From contig JAKRSB010000081.1 of NCBI GenBank assembly GCA_022402525.1, positions 1 through 64,000 on the forward strand: a stretch of DNA of 64,000 nt, given 5' to 3'. The number at the start of each line of letters is the position of its first letter. Position 1 is the first letter of the stretch. Below, piece by piece: positions 1-15,649 of the stretch. A program made the translations under genes and the position numbers. The DNA comes from Thermosynechococcaceae cyanobacterium MS004. GTDB lineage: Bacteria > Cyanobacteriota > Cyanobacteriia > Thermosynechococcales > Thermosynechococcaceae. The notes beneath the pieces are model-generated. The model was not told the origin of the DNA and searched no databases. It worked only from the letters and a program-made list of their open reading frames with translations.

Positions 1-60
1 AGTGGTTCGCTCAACTCCTCTTGAGGCAATGTTTTTGCCAAAGTGGGATGCTCCCGACAA

Positions 61-157
61 CTATCCGTCTATATGCCAAATTAGGCGATATGGCTGGACT
101 GCTATCCATCTATATGCCGTAGGGAGCGACATAGGTGGATGCTGTCCGTCTACATAT
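61..157. repeat. Three spaced imperfect 16-17-bp direct repeats
   Basis: Copies of CTATCCGTCTATATGCC lie at 61-77 and 102-118 (one difference), and a shorter, more diverged copy CTGTCCGTCTACATAT lies at 142-157. The starts are 41 and 40 bp apart, close to four helical turns, so all copies face the same side of the DNA. They end about 105 bp before the AbiE-like pair. They could be binding sites for a regulator of that pair or the edge of a larger repeat cut by the window start. No gene is visible in 1-261. Confidence 0.55.
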
Positions 158-261
158 AGTTAGATCACTCAGAGCTTGCAGTGGACAAACTACCAAATTG
201 TATTGGTGGCAACACTCTGGTGATGGAGATTCACTGAGACTACTTACGTCATGGAATAGAG

Positions 262-1431
262 ATGGCTTATCATCCTTTCCTTGATTTCAAACAAAAGTGT
301 ATAATTAAAACCTATATTGCTGAAGCCAAGTGGGCAATTATTCCAATGCAACCCAAAAACCCACTTTTTCAAAAATGTTTCAATTATCTTGAATCGCTAC
401 CTCATATTGAGGTAGCGATTCAAGAAGAACCCTATTTTTCTAGTGAGTTTCTAGCTGATGGGAAACTAATAATTAAGACATCAAACAGAAGTGTAAATTA
501 TGTCTGTGAGATTAAATCTGGACTCACAAACGATGTAATTGAACAAGTCACTAAATATTTTTATAATTTAGGCGGAAGATTAAAACATACCGAAAGACCA
601 TTGCTGGTTACTCGTGGATTATCTAATGTAGTCGTAGAGCAACTTCTAAAGAACAATATTGAATTCATAGATGTTGATGGAAATATTTATCTAAATAGTC
701 CAGAAATTTATATATTAGTTCGCAATCAAGTTTCTAAAGAAGGTGCAAGCAAATCTCTGGAAATCACCGCTGCCGCCCTGCAAGTTATATATGCTTTTCT
801 TAGTCAGCCCAATCTTCTTGTAGAATATGACTTTGATGAAGAGATTTCTCATATCTCTGGTGTTACCCCAAACACGGTAAAGAATATTCTTAAGAAACTT
901 CAGAACTTAGATTACATTGCACGTAGGCGTGGAAGGTATGAGATTGTTGATTATGTCAGGCTCCTTGAACGTTGGGAGCTAGGATATATTGAAAGACTAC
1001 GTGCAAAATTACTTCTCGGAACTTTCTCGCCCATTGAAAAAGGAGGCTTTCCAGAGGTCAAAGATAAAATAAAAGAATGTGCAAAGCAATTCAATTACTT
1101 GATAGGTGGTGAACTTGCTGCTTCAATAATGACCGATTATCTTCGCCCTATTAGTGCAACCTTGCATTTGATCAACAACTCTGATAGTCGTCAAATAGCA
1201 GTTAAGTTAAAGCTGAAGCCTGACCCAGATGGTGATGTTGTATTGCTCCAAACTTTTGGTCATGTTGAATATCAGCTATGTGATCGTGAAAAAAATCAAC
1301 AAAATCTTGTTCATCCATTATTAATTCATGCAGAGCTAATTCGAACTGGAAACAGCCGCCTAAAGGAAACTGCCCAACTCATTTATGATCGCTACATTGA
1401 AGAGTTAGCACAAAAACATGATTGGCTCTAA
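262..1431 (+). CDS. AbiEi-like antitoxin / winged-helix regulator
   Basis: This 389-residue protein looks like the regulator half of a type IV (AbiE-like) toxin-antitoxin pair. Residues about 40-155 have a nuclease-fold-like pattern with a strand ending EIKSG (83-87) and a later FIDVDGNIYLN segment (135-145), as in the AbiEi_2 type of antitoxin. Residues about 165-230 read as a winged helix-turn-helix (SGVTPNTVKNILKKLQ followed by a basic RRRGRYEIV wing). The rest, about 230-389, is an uncharacterised C-terminal domain. The ribosome-binding site is weak, and ATG 346 (residue 29) is an alternative start. The 14-bp overlap with the next gene implies translational coupling and supports a paired function. 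The gene is AT-rich and nearly free of HIP1 sites, unlike the core genes, which suggests recent acquisition. The family assignment is from motif resemblance, not a search. Confidence 0.7.
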   Translation: MAYHPFLDFKQKCIIKTYIAEAKWAIIPMQPKNPLFQKCFNYLESLPHIEVAIQEEPYFSSEFLADGKLIIKTSNRSVNYVCEIKSGLTNDVIEQVTKYFYNLGGRLKHTERPLLVTRGLSNVVVEQLLKNNIEFIDVDGNIYLNSPEIYILVRNQVSKEGASKSLEITAAALQVIYAFLSQPNLLVEYDFDEEISHISGVTPNTVKNILKKLQNLDYIARRRGRYEIVDYVRLLERWELGYIERLRAKLLLGTFSPIEKGGFPEVKDKIKECAKQFNYLIGGELAASIMTDYLRPISATLHLINNSDSRQIAVKLKLKPDPDGDVVLLQTFGHVEYQLCDREKNQQNLVHPLLIHAELIRTGNSRLKETAQLIYDRYIEELAQKHDWL

Positions 1432-2197
1432 AGAAAAGCAAGTCTTGGCTGATTTAATTGATGTAGTCAGCTCGTTGGATTTGCCAATGATTTTAGTCGG
1501 CGCAGGAGCCAGACTTCTAATATTTGACCAGAAATTTGGAGAAGGAAGAAGTACTAAAGATTGGGACGTGGCAATTTCTATAGATAGCTGGGAAATCTAT
1601 CAAGAACTTCGTAAATCTTTGACGACTGGTGAATCTCCACGTTTTAATTCTACAAAAAACTCTCACAAATTTATACATATAGAGACCAGTATAGAGGTTG
1701 ACATAGTTCCATTTGGAGAAATTGGTGAGCCAGATCAAGAAATTATCTGGTCTGATAGTGGTAATTCTATGAATGTTTCAGGTTTTGCTGAAGCTCTTCT
1801 ACATGCGAAAACCACTACTATAGATGAACTAGAAATCCAAGTGGTTGATACGCCAGCTTTTATGGTTCTCAAATTTTTTGCGTGGGGAGATCGTGGAGAG
1901 CGCACAAATAAAGATTTAGAAGATATTGATTTTATCTTATTGAAATATGAAGATGATGAGCGCGTCTATTCTGAGTTGTCAGAAGAGCTTGCCGATGGAG
2001 TAGTTGACTTTCTCGATGCAAATATATACCTGCTTGGACAAGATATTTGCAAAATCCTTCAAGAGAAAACCTTGGTTGAATTTTGTTCATTATTGAATAG
2101 GCTGATTGAAAATCTAGATTCTGATGAAGCTGGATCTTTGGGTTATAGATTGAAAGTGTTGCAGAAAGGAATTTGCTCTATATATCCACCGACATGA
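1418..2197 (+). CDS. AbiEii-like nucleotidyltransferase, putative toxin
   Basis: The protein has a nucleotidyltransferase fold: a GAGARLLIF motif at 28-36, the acidic pair in RSTKDWDVAI (D48, D50), a third acidic residue in IEVDIVPFG (D95), and a downstream block with K152, R162 and K165-D166 like the fourth AbiEii motif. AbiEii-type toxins of type IV systems transfer nucleotides to cellular targets, for some members to tRNA, and are neutralised by AbiEi. Its start ATG at 1418 lies inside the end of the upstream regulator gene, so the two are probably translated together. At 259 residues it is within the range of the family. The stop codon is immediately followed by an attC-like sequence. Toxicity is inferred from the family and the pairing. 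Confidence 0.72.
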   Translation: MIGSKEKQVLADLIDVVSSLDLPMILVGAGARLLIFDQKFGEGRSTKDWDVAISIDSWEIYQELRKSLTTGESPRFNSTKNSHKFIHIETSIEVDIVPFGEIGEPDQEIIWSDSGNSMNVSGFAEALLHAKTTTIDELEIQVVDTPAFMVLKFFAWGDRGERTNKDLEDIDFILLKYEDDERVYSELSEELADGVVDFLDANIYLLGQDICKILQEKTLVEFCSLLNRLIENLDSDEAGSLGYRLKVLQKGICSIYPPT

Positions 2198-2286
2198 TCT
2201 AACAACGCTCATGCTCGCCGACCGCTCAAAGCTATCGGTCATGATGCAAAGTGCAATGCCGTCCGGTGACGCGCAAACCGTTAGGC
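2197..2286 (+). other. attC-like recombination site
   Basis: The segment opens with ATCTAAC (2197-2203, matching RYYYAAC) and closes with GTTAGGC (2280-2286, matching GTTRRRY), the outer boxes of integron attC sites. Inside are further complementary pairs: TCGCC (2215-2219) with GGTGA (2265-2269, one G-T pair), and an inner hairpin GACCG (2220-2224) with CGGTC (2236-2240). The 90-bp length is normal for attC. The first box overlaps the stop codon of the AbiEii-like gene, as in gene cassettes. No integrase and no convincing second attC are in the window, so activity is unknown. Confidence 0.5.
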
Positions 2287-2415
2287 TCTCTGCTGGTCTA
2301 ATGGGATACTTTACCGAAACGCCCATAAGAGTGAGTAGATCCTCGTTGCTTTCCAAACATTTAGCAATGAAAGTTAGATAGTGATTAAGTCTGATGCGCT
2401 GCGAGGCAGTTGAAA

Positions 2416-2988
2416 ATGGAAAAATATTTTAATGGTATTCGATTCAAGAAAGTACAAAGTGAAAAATGGTACGACTGGCTTTCTGATGCGATCGCTATTC
2501 CTTATCTTGAAAACAAAGAACTCCGTATTCATCTTGAATTCGATGATAATGAGCTTGATCAGTTTCAGAAAGAAATAGAGCTTACGGTAAAAAATACCTT
2601 GAGACTAAATGCTAATCATCGAAAACAAACTAAACCACATCTGTTTGCTTATTACAAAGATGTTGCGCTTGTCATCGGTGAAGAAAACCTTGAGGAGATG
2701 CCACCGCTAAAGACCGACGAGGACATTTTTAACTATGTTGACTTGACGCGGCTTAGTATTGGCAAAGGTAGTATTGTTGGCAATTTCTATGCGAATTTTA
2801 GTGGAAACTGTGATTGGGACATGGAACATGGTGTTTCTATATCTTTTCTGTGGGGAGAAGAAATTGCTATGGTGTCGAGCAACAGTCATATCTGTAATTC
2901 AGACGCCTACGCCGATAAGGACAAAGATCAATATATCTACATAGGAAGCAATATCAAAACAACCTTAGCGCAAGGGGATTGTAAATAA
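2416..2988 (+). CDS. Hypothetical protein, possible DUF6985/immunity-like
   Basis: I do not firmly recognise this 190-residue acidic protein. It has no signal peptide or membrane segment. A mixed alpha/beta layout and a central NCDWDMEHGVSISF segment (residues about 134-147) resemble DUF6985-type proteins, a group often found near toxins or in immunity roles, but this is only a resemblance. ATG 2416 is chosen over TTG 2410 because GAGG at 2403-2406 is well spaced for the ATG. The gene stands alone downstream of the AbiE-like pair and the attC-like site, with one HIP1 octamer. Its AT-rich composition matches the accessory region rather than the core. Confidence 0.5.
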   Translation: MEKYFNGIRFKKVQSEKWYDWLSDAIAIPYLENKELRIHLEFDDNELDQFQKEIELTVKNTLRLNANHRKQTKPHLFAYYKDVALVIGEENLEEMPPLKTDEDIFNYVDLTRLSIGKGSIVGNFYANFSGNCDWDMEHGVSISFLWGEEIAMVSSNSHICNSDAYADKDKDQYIYIGSNIKTTLAQGDCK

Positions 2989-3020
2989 AGTATCGGTTAG
3001 TTTGACAGGCGCAGCGTAAT

Positions 3021-6178: not shown

Positions 6179-8305
6179 ATGCAAACGCCAAACAACGCCC
6201 AAGGGAAACCCCTTCGCATACCCAGCGGTAAACGGGGCGATCGCCGCCACACCCCTAAAGCCAACCTGAGCGGCCTCTACCAACGCGCCGTGCGGGAAGC
6301 CTTTCTCAAGCTCGACCCGCGCAACGCGGTCAAAAACCCTGTGATGTTTATCGTATGGGTGGGTACAGGGGTCACAGCCCTCGTCACCCTCGACCCCAAT
6401 CTGTTTGGCACCGTCCAGGCCGATGCGGGGCAGCAGCGGATTCTCAACGGACTCATTACAATCATTCTGTTTTTTACAGTAGTCTTTGCCAACTTTGCTG
6501 AAGCCGTCGCAGAAGGGCGGGGTAAGGCTCAGGCCGATTCGCTGCGCTCTACCCGCTCCGAGGCGATCGCCCGTAAGCTATTGCCCGACGGTACGATTCA
6601 AGAAATTAGCTCCACGGAACTACGGCGAGGCGATCAGGTGAAAGTGATTGCGGGAGACATGATTCCCGCCGATGGGGAGGTGATCAAGGGAGTCGCCTCC
6701 GTGGATGAGTCTGCCATTACGGGGGAATCGGCTCCGGTATTGAAACAGCCCGGAACCGATATTGCCAGTTCCGTAACGGGCGGGACGCGGATTCTTTCTG
6801 ATGAGTTAATTCTCACCATCACCTCCGACCCAGGCCAAGGCTTTATTGACCGGATGATTGCCCTCGTCGAAGGGGCAGAGCGCACCAAAACCCCCAACGA
6901 AATTGCCCTCACGGTATTGCTGACGGTCTTAACCCAAGTCTTTTTGATTGTGGTGGCGACGGTATCACCCCTTGCCAACTATGTTCAGGCACCCACCACG
7001 ATTGCCATTTTGATCTCCCTGCTGGTGGCCCTGATTCCCACCACCATTGGCGGCTTACTGAGTGCGATCGGTATAGCGGGGATGGATCGGGTGGCGCAGT
7101 TTAACGTCATTGCGACCTCCGGTCGAGCCGTGGAAGCCTGTGGCGATATCAATACCCTTGTCCTCGACAAAACCGGAACCATTACCCTGGGCAATCGCTT
7201 AGCGAATGAATTTATTCCGGTGAATGGACACAGCGTAGAGGAAGTCGCCCAGGTTGCCCTCGCCGCCAGCATCTTTGACGAAACCCCAGAGGGCAAGTCC
7301 ATCGTCCAGCTTGCCGAACAACAGCATCAAGCCAAAACAACTTTTGACCCGACTCAAGCCGAAGGGGTAGAATTCTCTGCCCGCACCCGGATGAGCGGCA
7401 CCAATCTTCCGGGTGGACAGGAAGTTCGTAAGGGAGCCGTGGATGCGGTGAAGGGCTTTGTGCGATCGCGAAGCGTCTCCTCTGGAGATTCGCGGGGGGG
7501 CACCATTTCCGCCCAGCTCGATGCCGCCTACGAGAAAGTCTCCCGATTGGGAGGCACGCCCCTCGCGGTCTGTCAGGATAACGAGATCTACGGGGTCATT
7601 TACCTCAAAGATATTGTGAAACCTGGTCTACGAGAGCGCTTCGACCAGCTTCGCCGCATGGGAGTGAAAACCATCATGCTCACGGGCGACAACCGCATCA
7701 CGGCCTCGGTCATCGCCAAAGAAGCGGGGGTGGATGACTTTATTGCCGAGGCCACGCCGGAAGACAAAATTGACGTGATTCGCAAGGAGCAAGCCGAAGG
7801 TAAACTGGTTGCCATGACAGGGGACGGAACTAATGATGCCCCTGCCCTCGCCCAAGCGAACGTGGGCGTAGCCATGAACTCCGGCACCCAGGCCGCTAAG
7901 GAAGCGGCCAATATGGTGGATCTAGACTCTGACCCCACCAAGCTGATTGACCTAGTCACCATCGGGAAGCAGTTGTTGATTACGCGGGGAGCGCTTACCA
8001 CCTTTTCGATCGCCAACGATATCGCCAAATACTTTGCCATTATCCCCACGATCTTTGCAGCGGCGGGGATTGGGTCGCTGAACGTTATGGGGCTAAAAAG
8101 TCCACAGTCCGCCATTATCTCGGCACTGATCTATAACGCCCTGATTATTCCGGCCTTGATTCCCTTAGCCCTAAAAGGGGTTCAGTTCCGGCCCCTGACC
8201 GCCGATCAGCTCTTGCGCCGCAATATGTTGATCTATGGCTTAGGCGGTGTAATTGCGCCGTTTATTGCCATCAAAATTATTGATGTATTGATTCCACTTG
8301 CTTAG
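6179..8305 (+). CDS. kdpB: K(+)-transporting P-type ATPase subunit B
   Basis: KdpB is the catalytic P-type ATPase that powers K+ uptake by the Kdp complex. The phosphorylation motif DKTGTIT begins at residue 330; the actuator motif TGES is near residue 181 and the hinge motif GDGTNDAP near residue 548. Membrane helices flank these as expected. ATG 6179 lies 11 bp after the kdpA stop, though the frame is open upstream. At 708 residues it is about 20-30 longer than most family members. Part of the excess is a 13-residue Ser/Arg/Gly stretch encoded by a palindromic repeat at 7462-7493, in the nucleotide-binding domain between the conserved RKGAVDAV and GGTPLAV segments. Confidence 0.96.
7462..7493 (+). 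repeat. HIP1-linked palindromic repeat inside kdpB
   Basis: The element starts with GCGATCGCGAAGCG and ends with GGAGATTCGC, with an inverted pair TCTCC/GGAGA around a short loop. Similar short palindromes joined to HIP1 sites are scattered through cyanobacterial genomes, including inside genes. Here it is in frame and encodes a Ser/Arg-rich linker ([13 protein letters not shown]) absent from typical KdpB proteins. Confidence 0.6.
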
Positions 8306-14020: not shown

Positions 14021-15649
14021 ATGACTGATGATTTTATTGATAATACGACTGAAATATATCATGAAATTGAAACCTTGCCAGAAAATTGGCATCTTTGTTT
14101 TCTAGAAGAATTACTAGACAGATTGAGCAACGGAAGCTCTGCTACTCAATTTTCAGAATGTGCAGGCTTTCCTATCACTAGAATTGAGACTATATCAAAT
14201 GGTTTTATTGATACAAATAGAGTTAAATATGTTCAAGAAACATCTAAAGATTTTATTGATAAATATGGATTAAAATCAGGAGATATATTATTTAGCCATA
14301 TCAATAGTGATTCTCATCTTGGGAAGACTGCCTTATATAAAGGATTACCCAAAACACTAATTCATGGAATAAACTTACTTCTTCTAAGACCTAGTAGGTG
14401 GATTTCATCTCCCTATCTTAATTATTACCTCAAATTTCTTCGAGTGAAAGGTGTCTTCATAAAAGTTGCCCAAAGAGCTGTAAACCAATCTTCCATTAAT
14501 CAGAGGAAATTGAGTAAAATTCCTATTAGACTATGTCCAATAGATGAACAAAAACGCATTGTAGAAAAAATCGAAGAGCTTTTTTCCGATCTTGATAGCG
14601 GTATTGACAGTCTCAAAAATGCGCAGCAACAACTTAAAGTTTATCGTCATGCGGTTTTGAAGTGGGCATTTGAGGGAAAGCTGACGGCGCAATGGCGGGA
14701 AGAGCAAAAACGGCTAGGTAAACTTGAGTCTGTGGAGGTTTTGCTGGCGCAAATTAAGGCCGAGCGGGAACGTCGCTATCAAGGTAGATTCCAAAATTCT
14801 CTTTTGCCAGAGACAGAAACGTTATTTCAAATTCCTAAGGGCTGGTATTTAGTAACACTTGATCAGCTCAGTCTTCTTATTACAAGTGGATCGCGTGGCT
14901 GGGCAGAATATTATTCTGAGTCTGGAGATTATTTTATTCGAGCACAAAATATTAGTACTGATGAACTTGATTTAAGTAATGTAGCTTATGTGACGCTTCC
15001 ACAAGGTGTAGAAGGAAAACGCACTAACATAAAATTTGAAGATCTTCTTATCACAATTACTGGAGCTAATGTTACTAAGACTGCATTAGTTAAGATTGAA
15101 TTTGATAAAGCTGCTTATGTGAACCAGCATGTCGGATTGGTGAGATTGACAAAGTATGTAAATCGAAAATTCATTTATTACTGGATTATTAGTCCTCAAA
15201 ATGGTCGCTCCCAACTGACTGAAGCTGCCTATGGTGCTGGTAAACCTGGCTTAAATCTGACCAATCTTAAAGAAATTATTATTGCTTTACCCTCGCTCAG
15301 CGAACAAAATCAAATAGTCGATGAGATTGAATCTCGGCTTTCTATTTGCGATCGCCTCGAAGCAGAAATCGAAACCAACCTCAAAAAAGCCGAAGCATTG
15401 CGCCAAAGCATCCTCAAGCAAGCCTTTGAAGGCAAACTCGTCCCCCAAGACCCCAACGACGAACCCGCCTCAGTCTTGCTAGAGCGCATCCGAGCCGAAC
15501 GCGAAGCCCAGAAAAACGGCAAACCGACCCCTGCCTCAAAGCGACAATCGCGGAAAAAGAAAAACCTACTGGAGCTTTCAGGCCAAATCCAACTCGCCGA
15601 TGACTACGACTACAAAGCACTGAGAGGCGATCGCCATGTTGAGGATTGA
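14021..15649 (+). CDS. hsdS: Type I restriction-modification specificity subunit
   Basis: HsdS recognises a split DNA target and holds the HsdM/HsdR complex. The 542 residues show two target-recognition domains (about 15-170 and 270-440), each followed by a helical spacer: the first beginning CPIDEQKRIVEKIEELFSDL (about 179-198) and ending WAFEGKL, the second beginning SLSEQNQIVDEIESRL and ending QAFEGKLVP. A basic C-terminal tail carries KKKNLLELSGQIQLADDYDY. The first recognition domain is AT-rich, as is common. The central spacer is G-rich (23 G to 9 C in 14641-14700) and the last spacer C-rich (24 C to 11 G in 15421-15480), so the gene looks like a recombinant. The 131 bp upstream are AT-rich and probably carry its promoter. 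Confidence 0.92.
   Translation: MTDDFIDNTTEIYHEIETLPENWHLCFLEELLDRLSNGSSATQFSECAGFPITRIETISNGFIDTNRVKYVQETSKDFIDKYGLKSGDILFSHINSDSHLGKTALYKGLPKTLIHGINLLLLRPSRWISSPYLNYYLKFLRVKGVFIKVAQRAVNQSSINQRKLSKIPIRLCPIDEQKRIVEKIEELFSDLDSGIDSLKNAQQQLKVYRHAVLKWAFEGKLTAQWREEQKRLGKLESVEVLLAQIKAERERRYQGRFQNSLLPETETLFQIPKGWYLVTLDQLSLLITSGSRGWAEYYSESGDYFIRAQNISTDELDLSNVAYVTLPQGVEGKRTNIKFEDLLITITGANVTKTALVKIEFDKAAYVNQHVGLVRLTKYVNRKFIYYWIISPQNGRSQLTEAAYGAGKPGLNLTNLKEIIIALPSLSEQNQIVDEIESRLSICDRLEAEIETNLKKAEALRQSILKQAFEGKLVPQDPNDEPASVLLERIRAEREAQKNGKPTPASKRQSRKKKNLLELSGQIQLADDYDYKALRGDRHVED

Follow-up and report, generated by a model that had tools for sequence, protein, structure and literature searches.

A cyanobacterial gene cassette with an AbiE-like toxin-antitoxin pair and an apparently hybrid attC site

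Introduction

Integron study has centred mainly on Proteobacteria. Earlier genome surveys reported integrons in cyanobacteria (PMC2426708 and work cited there), and a cyanobacterial attC model has drawn on them (PMC8352920). Both these integrons and toxin-antitoxin cassettes are thus already published, each separately; for AbiE cassettes we found no paper in the open literature searched, which does not prove that there is none. Here we analysed a 64,000-nucleotide stretch of DNA (the window) with which contig C131 begins, in a cyanobacterial genome of 4.93 Mb and 150 contigs, and asked whether an attC-like site directly behind an AbiE-like pair is the attC of an integron cassette. We consider it very likely that positions 1-2286 belong to a cyanobacterial chromosomal integron and comprise its cassette-bearing end, with an attI cut by a repeat, one captured AbiE-like cassette and a hybrid attC. 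The features are listed below, a slash marking the crossover point.

1-55, no strand assigned: end of a repeated element, candidate insertion sequence, interrupting the attI; also the contig end
56-165, plus strand: attI site, expected crossover between G159 and T160 (G/TTAGAT)
160-2280, plus strand: putative gene cassette with the AbiE-like pair, G/TTRRRY at both bounds
300-305, plus strand: possible -10 element TATAAT, a weak candidate for a cassette promoter, conserved in Oscillatoria sp. CS-180
346-1431, plus strand: AbiEi-like antitoxin (Pfam AbiEi_2)
1418-2197, plus strand: AbiEii-like nucleotidyltransferase toxin, overlapping the antitoxin by 14 bases
2197-2286, plus strand: attC, with R'' at 2197-2203, L'' region at about 2207-2224 (family B), L' region at 2259-2274 (family A) and R' at 2280-2286
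2287-2990, plus strand: possible second cassette, with a DUF6985 ORF at 2410-2988 (Pfam DUF6985, 1.9e-24)

An attC-like site begins at the toxin stop codon

The original prediction, made from the sequence of the window, described a 90-bp site with RYYYAAC and GTTRRRY outer boxes that starts at the stop codon of the toxin gene. Each of these elements was recovered. The R'' box is ATCTAAC and the R' box GTTAGGC, the site measures 90 bp from end to end, and the toxin TGA (2195-2197) overlaps the first base of R''. We searched for related sites with two covariance models, R1 built from 12 sites of one repeat family (A) and R2 from 11 sites of another (B), the window site being left out of both. 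It scored 47.7 bits with R1 (E 2e-14 in the window, 1.5e-12 genome-wide) and 42.6 bits with R2 (E 7.2e-11 in the window, 5.4e-9 genome-wide) and was the only strong match in 64 kb, the next best reaching 15.8 bits. In the genome as a whole, R1 and R2 matched about 40 sites. The training sites had been gathered in part through half-site resemblance to the window site, and the E-values therefore establish that it belongs to a repeat family, not that it functions as an attC. Against the class 1 attC sites on an IncP plasmid, R1 and R2 gave weak matches at most (best E 0.069, for the attC of aacA4), and therefore these are cyanobacterial and not general attC models; two real attC sites of the class 1 integron plasmid were ranked high, without significance.

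Neither model detected a second attC in the 64-kb window, including the upstream stretch 1-165, where the prediction had also found no full second site; by cluster rules the window attC is a single site. An Rfam scan of the window gave no match, and folding of the isolated site as a single strand was not informative.

The related repeats have the structure and placement of attC sites

Related sites in this and other genomes, reached through similarity to the window site, comprised two well-marked families, A (TAACAAGCGCTTGCAC-CGGAACGG ... CCGTCCGGTGAAGCGC) and B (TAACAACGCCCATGCACACCGACCG ... GCGGCGGGTGATGGGC), as well as further subtypes. Both families follow the plan of an attC: their R and L boxes pair, the left arm contains extrahelical bases, and compensating changes occur. 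This pairing, with its extrahelical bases and covariation, argues against a dispersed palindromic repeat (REP- or MITE-like) that only looks like an attC. Such a repeat would fit the loop, which is conserved between A and B across genera and in this is unusual for attC loops, and also the many solitary sites. We nonetheless regard it as very improbable. Among the 31 matches within 20 kb of an intI, 28 had the canonical geometry of a site that lies upstream of intI on the strand opposite to it (binomial p 2.7e-14; the 31 matches represent about 17 loci, and sites within one array are not independent). Across 116 sampled related cyanobacterial genomes, intI was present in 47 (TIGR02249, E up to 1e-30; 35 over the curated cut-off), with several genomes holding two or three full-length copies, and R1 attC matches were present in 63. 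The two co-occurred: sites were found in 35 of the 47 genomes with intI and in 28 of the other 69 (Fisher p 3.4e-4).

Two further observations speak against a REP- or MITE-like repeat: the sites form arrays with forward ORFs between them, and attI junctions break at G/TTRRRY. The ORFs between sites run mostly in the direction of the array, and by eye their products include acetyltransferase-like and other typical cassette proteins. The same geometry was seen on plasmid pB of Kovacikia minuta, which has an annotated integron integrase and three to five sites of families A and B upstream of intI; the genes between the attC sites of this plasmid include a DNA methyltransferase and an AAA ATPase. 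The attC identity of the family rests on IntI, attI and array geometry, and we conclude from the sequence that the element at 2197-2286 is a real integron attC directly after the AbiE-like pair.

The upstream box belongs to an attI, placing the pair in a first cassette

The failed search for a second attC at 1-165 led to the attI. Window positions 56-163 are 78-92% identical to six loci in the same genome, each placed 320-540 bp upstream of an intI remnant in divergent orientation, and the homology among the window and these six loci ends at GTTAG. The core CTACATATAGTTAG also precedes the intact intI on contig C140, as well as the C28 and C115 loci. The prediction had noted that GTTAGAT at 159-165 fits the right-hand attC box. 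That box is real, but the six-locus homology identifies it as the core of an attI and not as half an attC. The AbiE-like pair would therefore occupy the first cassette, at 160-2280. IntI would have inserted this cassette, as a circle, at the attI by recombining the folded bottom strand of its attC.

The left side of the attI is interrupted. Positions 1-55 are identical to the first 55 bases of contig C93 (C93:1-55), and similar 26-base stretches end contigs C78, C20 and C6; the element is probably an insertion sequence. No intI lies beside the cassette within the window; the attI is present, and the contig ends at its interrupted left side, inside the repeat. For the chromosomal integron the sequence provides attI homology with a break at G/TTAG, the attC, an intact intI on another contig of the genome and, in another genus, a cassette that matches. 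Together with the covariance models and about 40 further attC sites in the genome, these bear out the prediction of an attC in a cassette-like unit; a lack of model score and of other copies, which would have spoken against it, is clearly not what was seen.

The attC joins arms of two families and is predicted to fold poorly

The prediction also included inner complementary boxes, and here it held in part: 16 of 21 consensus pairs form in the window attC, whereas five fail because its left arm is of family B and its right arm of family A, and these do not belong together. With the arms scored separately, the left gave 25.4 bits with B and 3.5 with A, and the right 27.0 bits with A and 5.6 with B. 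Among 74 sites scored by arm, the window site was the only strongly discordant one. We therefore read the site as a chimera of a family-B left arm and a family-A right arm.

Two other origins of this arrangement were weighed. Drift of a family-B attC by point mutation would be in keeping with the many degenerate attC sites in the genome and with the low own-arm complementarity of the window site (6.5), a value as low as that of 14 of 73 other sites. Each half is, however, close to its own family, and a consensus A arm on the right would not arise by drift from one of family B, which leaves drift improbable. An assembly artefact joining two repeats appears a little less probable still. In its favour, the contig ends within a repeat 2.2 kb away and the genome has multiple copies of attC, but the loop common to A and B spans only about 20 bases, well under the 55-base overlap at the contig ends, and the remainder of the region is unique.

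A true hybrid would most simply have arisen by homologous recombination or slippage between the original B site of the cassette and the A site of the cassette that followed. The exchange would lie in the loop sequence common to both families and would delete the intervening DNA; exchange by IntI at R' only would not make a B/A hybrid.

We calculated folding probability in the manner of PMC5371416. For the bottom strand of the window site it was about 1e-7, below all 23 reference family sites (5.6e-6 to 0.84), although the minimum energy of that strand was not unusual. Because its predicted folding probability falls below every reference site, recombination at the window attC is probably impaired. 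In the study just cited, cassettes flanked by sites of low folding probability showed reduced or undetectable excision (PMC5371416). The window site resembles the low-probability VCR attC sites of that study in that its bottom strand would seldom adopt the recombinogenic fold, and differs from them in that its poor folding stems from arms of different families. Poor pairing between the arms of the hybrid probably leaves the cassette fixed, and we infer from the folding model that the AbiE-like cassette may be locked in place. The hybrid suggests a simple route from a mobile cassette to a fixed gene.

Arms of unlike type were also seen at G008:C133:1117-1209, a possible second hybrid attC with a family-A left arm and a right arm of another subtype.

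The cassette carries an AbiE-like pair that is scattered across cyanobacteria

The antitoxin matched Pfam AbiEi_2 (7.3e-22; 78.7 bits, over the cut-off of 21). Its ORF could begin at 262, and the starts of homologues support ATG346. The toxin scored 18.7 bits against Pfam AbiEii, below the cut-off of 22.5, and for this reason we label the pair only AbiE-like. All 11 toxin homologues matched AbiEii (best 4.1e-7), and the window toxin matched the PADLOC profile PDC-M21B (8.1e-8). A nucleotidyltransferase motif is conserved, G28, G30, T46, D48 and D95 being invariant and D50 present in 10 of the 11 homologues. Predicted structures were poor (mean pLDDT 57 for the toxin and 58 for the antitoxin), and profile search gave no credible PDB relative. 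Like an AbiE type IV system, the locus has an AbiEi_2 antitoxin that overlaps a nucleotidyltransferase-like toxin; unlike one, its putative toxin lies below the AbiEii cut-off. A promoter scan did not pick up the TATAAT at 300-305, and there is no good -35 element. The DUF6985 ORF directly behind the attC is followed by no recognised attC and no R1 or R2 match.

The cassette is also present in Oscillatoria sp. CS-180, where integron-type sites lie at its bounds. The alignment reaches GTTAGAT (window) and GTTGAAC (Oscillatoria) upstream and runs into an attC downstream, with a degenerate family-B attC at the toxin stop (E 7.4e-6). This is the one case in another context in which the cassette is bounded by recombination sites, and the site there is degenerate. 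Homologues of the pair are scattered across cyanobacteria, and apart from Oscillatoria sp. CS-180 no attC was detected beside about two dozen homologous pairs, including an 89%-identical copy in Spirulina subsalsa FACHB-351; the pair is therefore not an obligate cassette. In one further genome (G048:C26) a copy of the pair is followed at the toxin stop by TGATCTAAC, possibly a decayed attC, which was non-significant by model.

We would expect the pair to stabilise the locus as an addiction module, possibly also an anti-phage one, tying a candidate module of this kind to cyanobacterial gene capture. Vibrio superintegrons likewise hold two-gene toxin-antitoxin cassettes, which are thought to stabilise arrays and carry their own promoters (PMC11023631, PMC8618304). 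The present case differs in its AbiE-like type IV pair, its cyanobacterial host and its position as the first cassette at the attI.

One intact integrase accompanies many attI platforms

The integrase on contig C140 is intact, with 324 aa, 485 bits against TIGR02249 (cut-off 265) and 54% identity to IntI1. It is the one intact copy in the genome; the many others are truncated or contain stops. About a dozen attI or intI-attI loci were found, on C140, C146 (two), C74, C64, C62, C20, C72 (two), C28, C54 and C115 and in the window. In six loci intI is cut short at varying points, and the stretch running from the attI crossover into its 5' part is about 79-91% identical among them. Two features of this system are unusual: its attC is a hybrid, and the genome combines numerous attI platforms with one intact integrase. 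The surprising part is the number of platforms relative to that single integrase.

In its integrase score above the curated cut-off, its attI before a divergent intI, its attC sites with R and L boxes and extrahelical bases, and its cassettes in one orientation, the system resembles a sedentary chromosomal integron. It differs from one in that about a dozen attI loci are dispersed, most of them beside a truncated or broken intI. In the IntegronFinder 2.0 survey, more than one IntI was found in 22% of genomes with IntI (PMC9024848). A tentative and rather doubtful model is that the intact integrase acts in trans on about a dozen attI platforms that are dispersed through the genome and share the core CTAYATATAGTTAG, most of which keep the attI, the 5' part of a dead intI and cassettes of their own, while hybrid attC sites lock single cassettes such as the AbiE-like pair. 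With its many attI platforms and single intact integrase, such a genome would show how integrons increase in number and decay, and how they share an integrase.

Contig C28 carries two tandem 745-base cassettes that are 95% identical (709/745) at 113059-114553, with no forward ORF of at least 60 aa. C72 has two copies, at 6841-7455 and 14574-15188, of a 615-base stretch covering attI and 5' intI; they are 99.7% identical, and the sequences beyond their crossovers differ.
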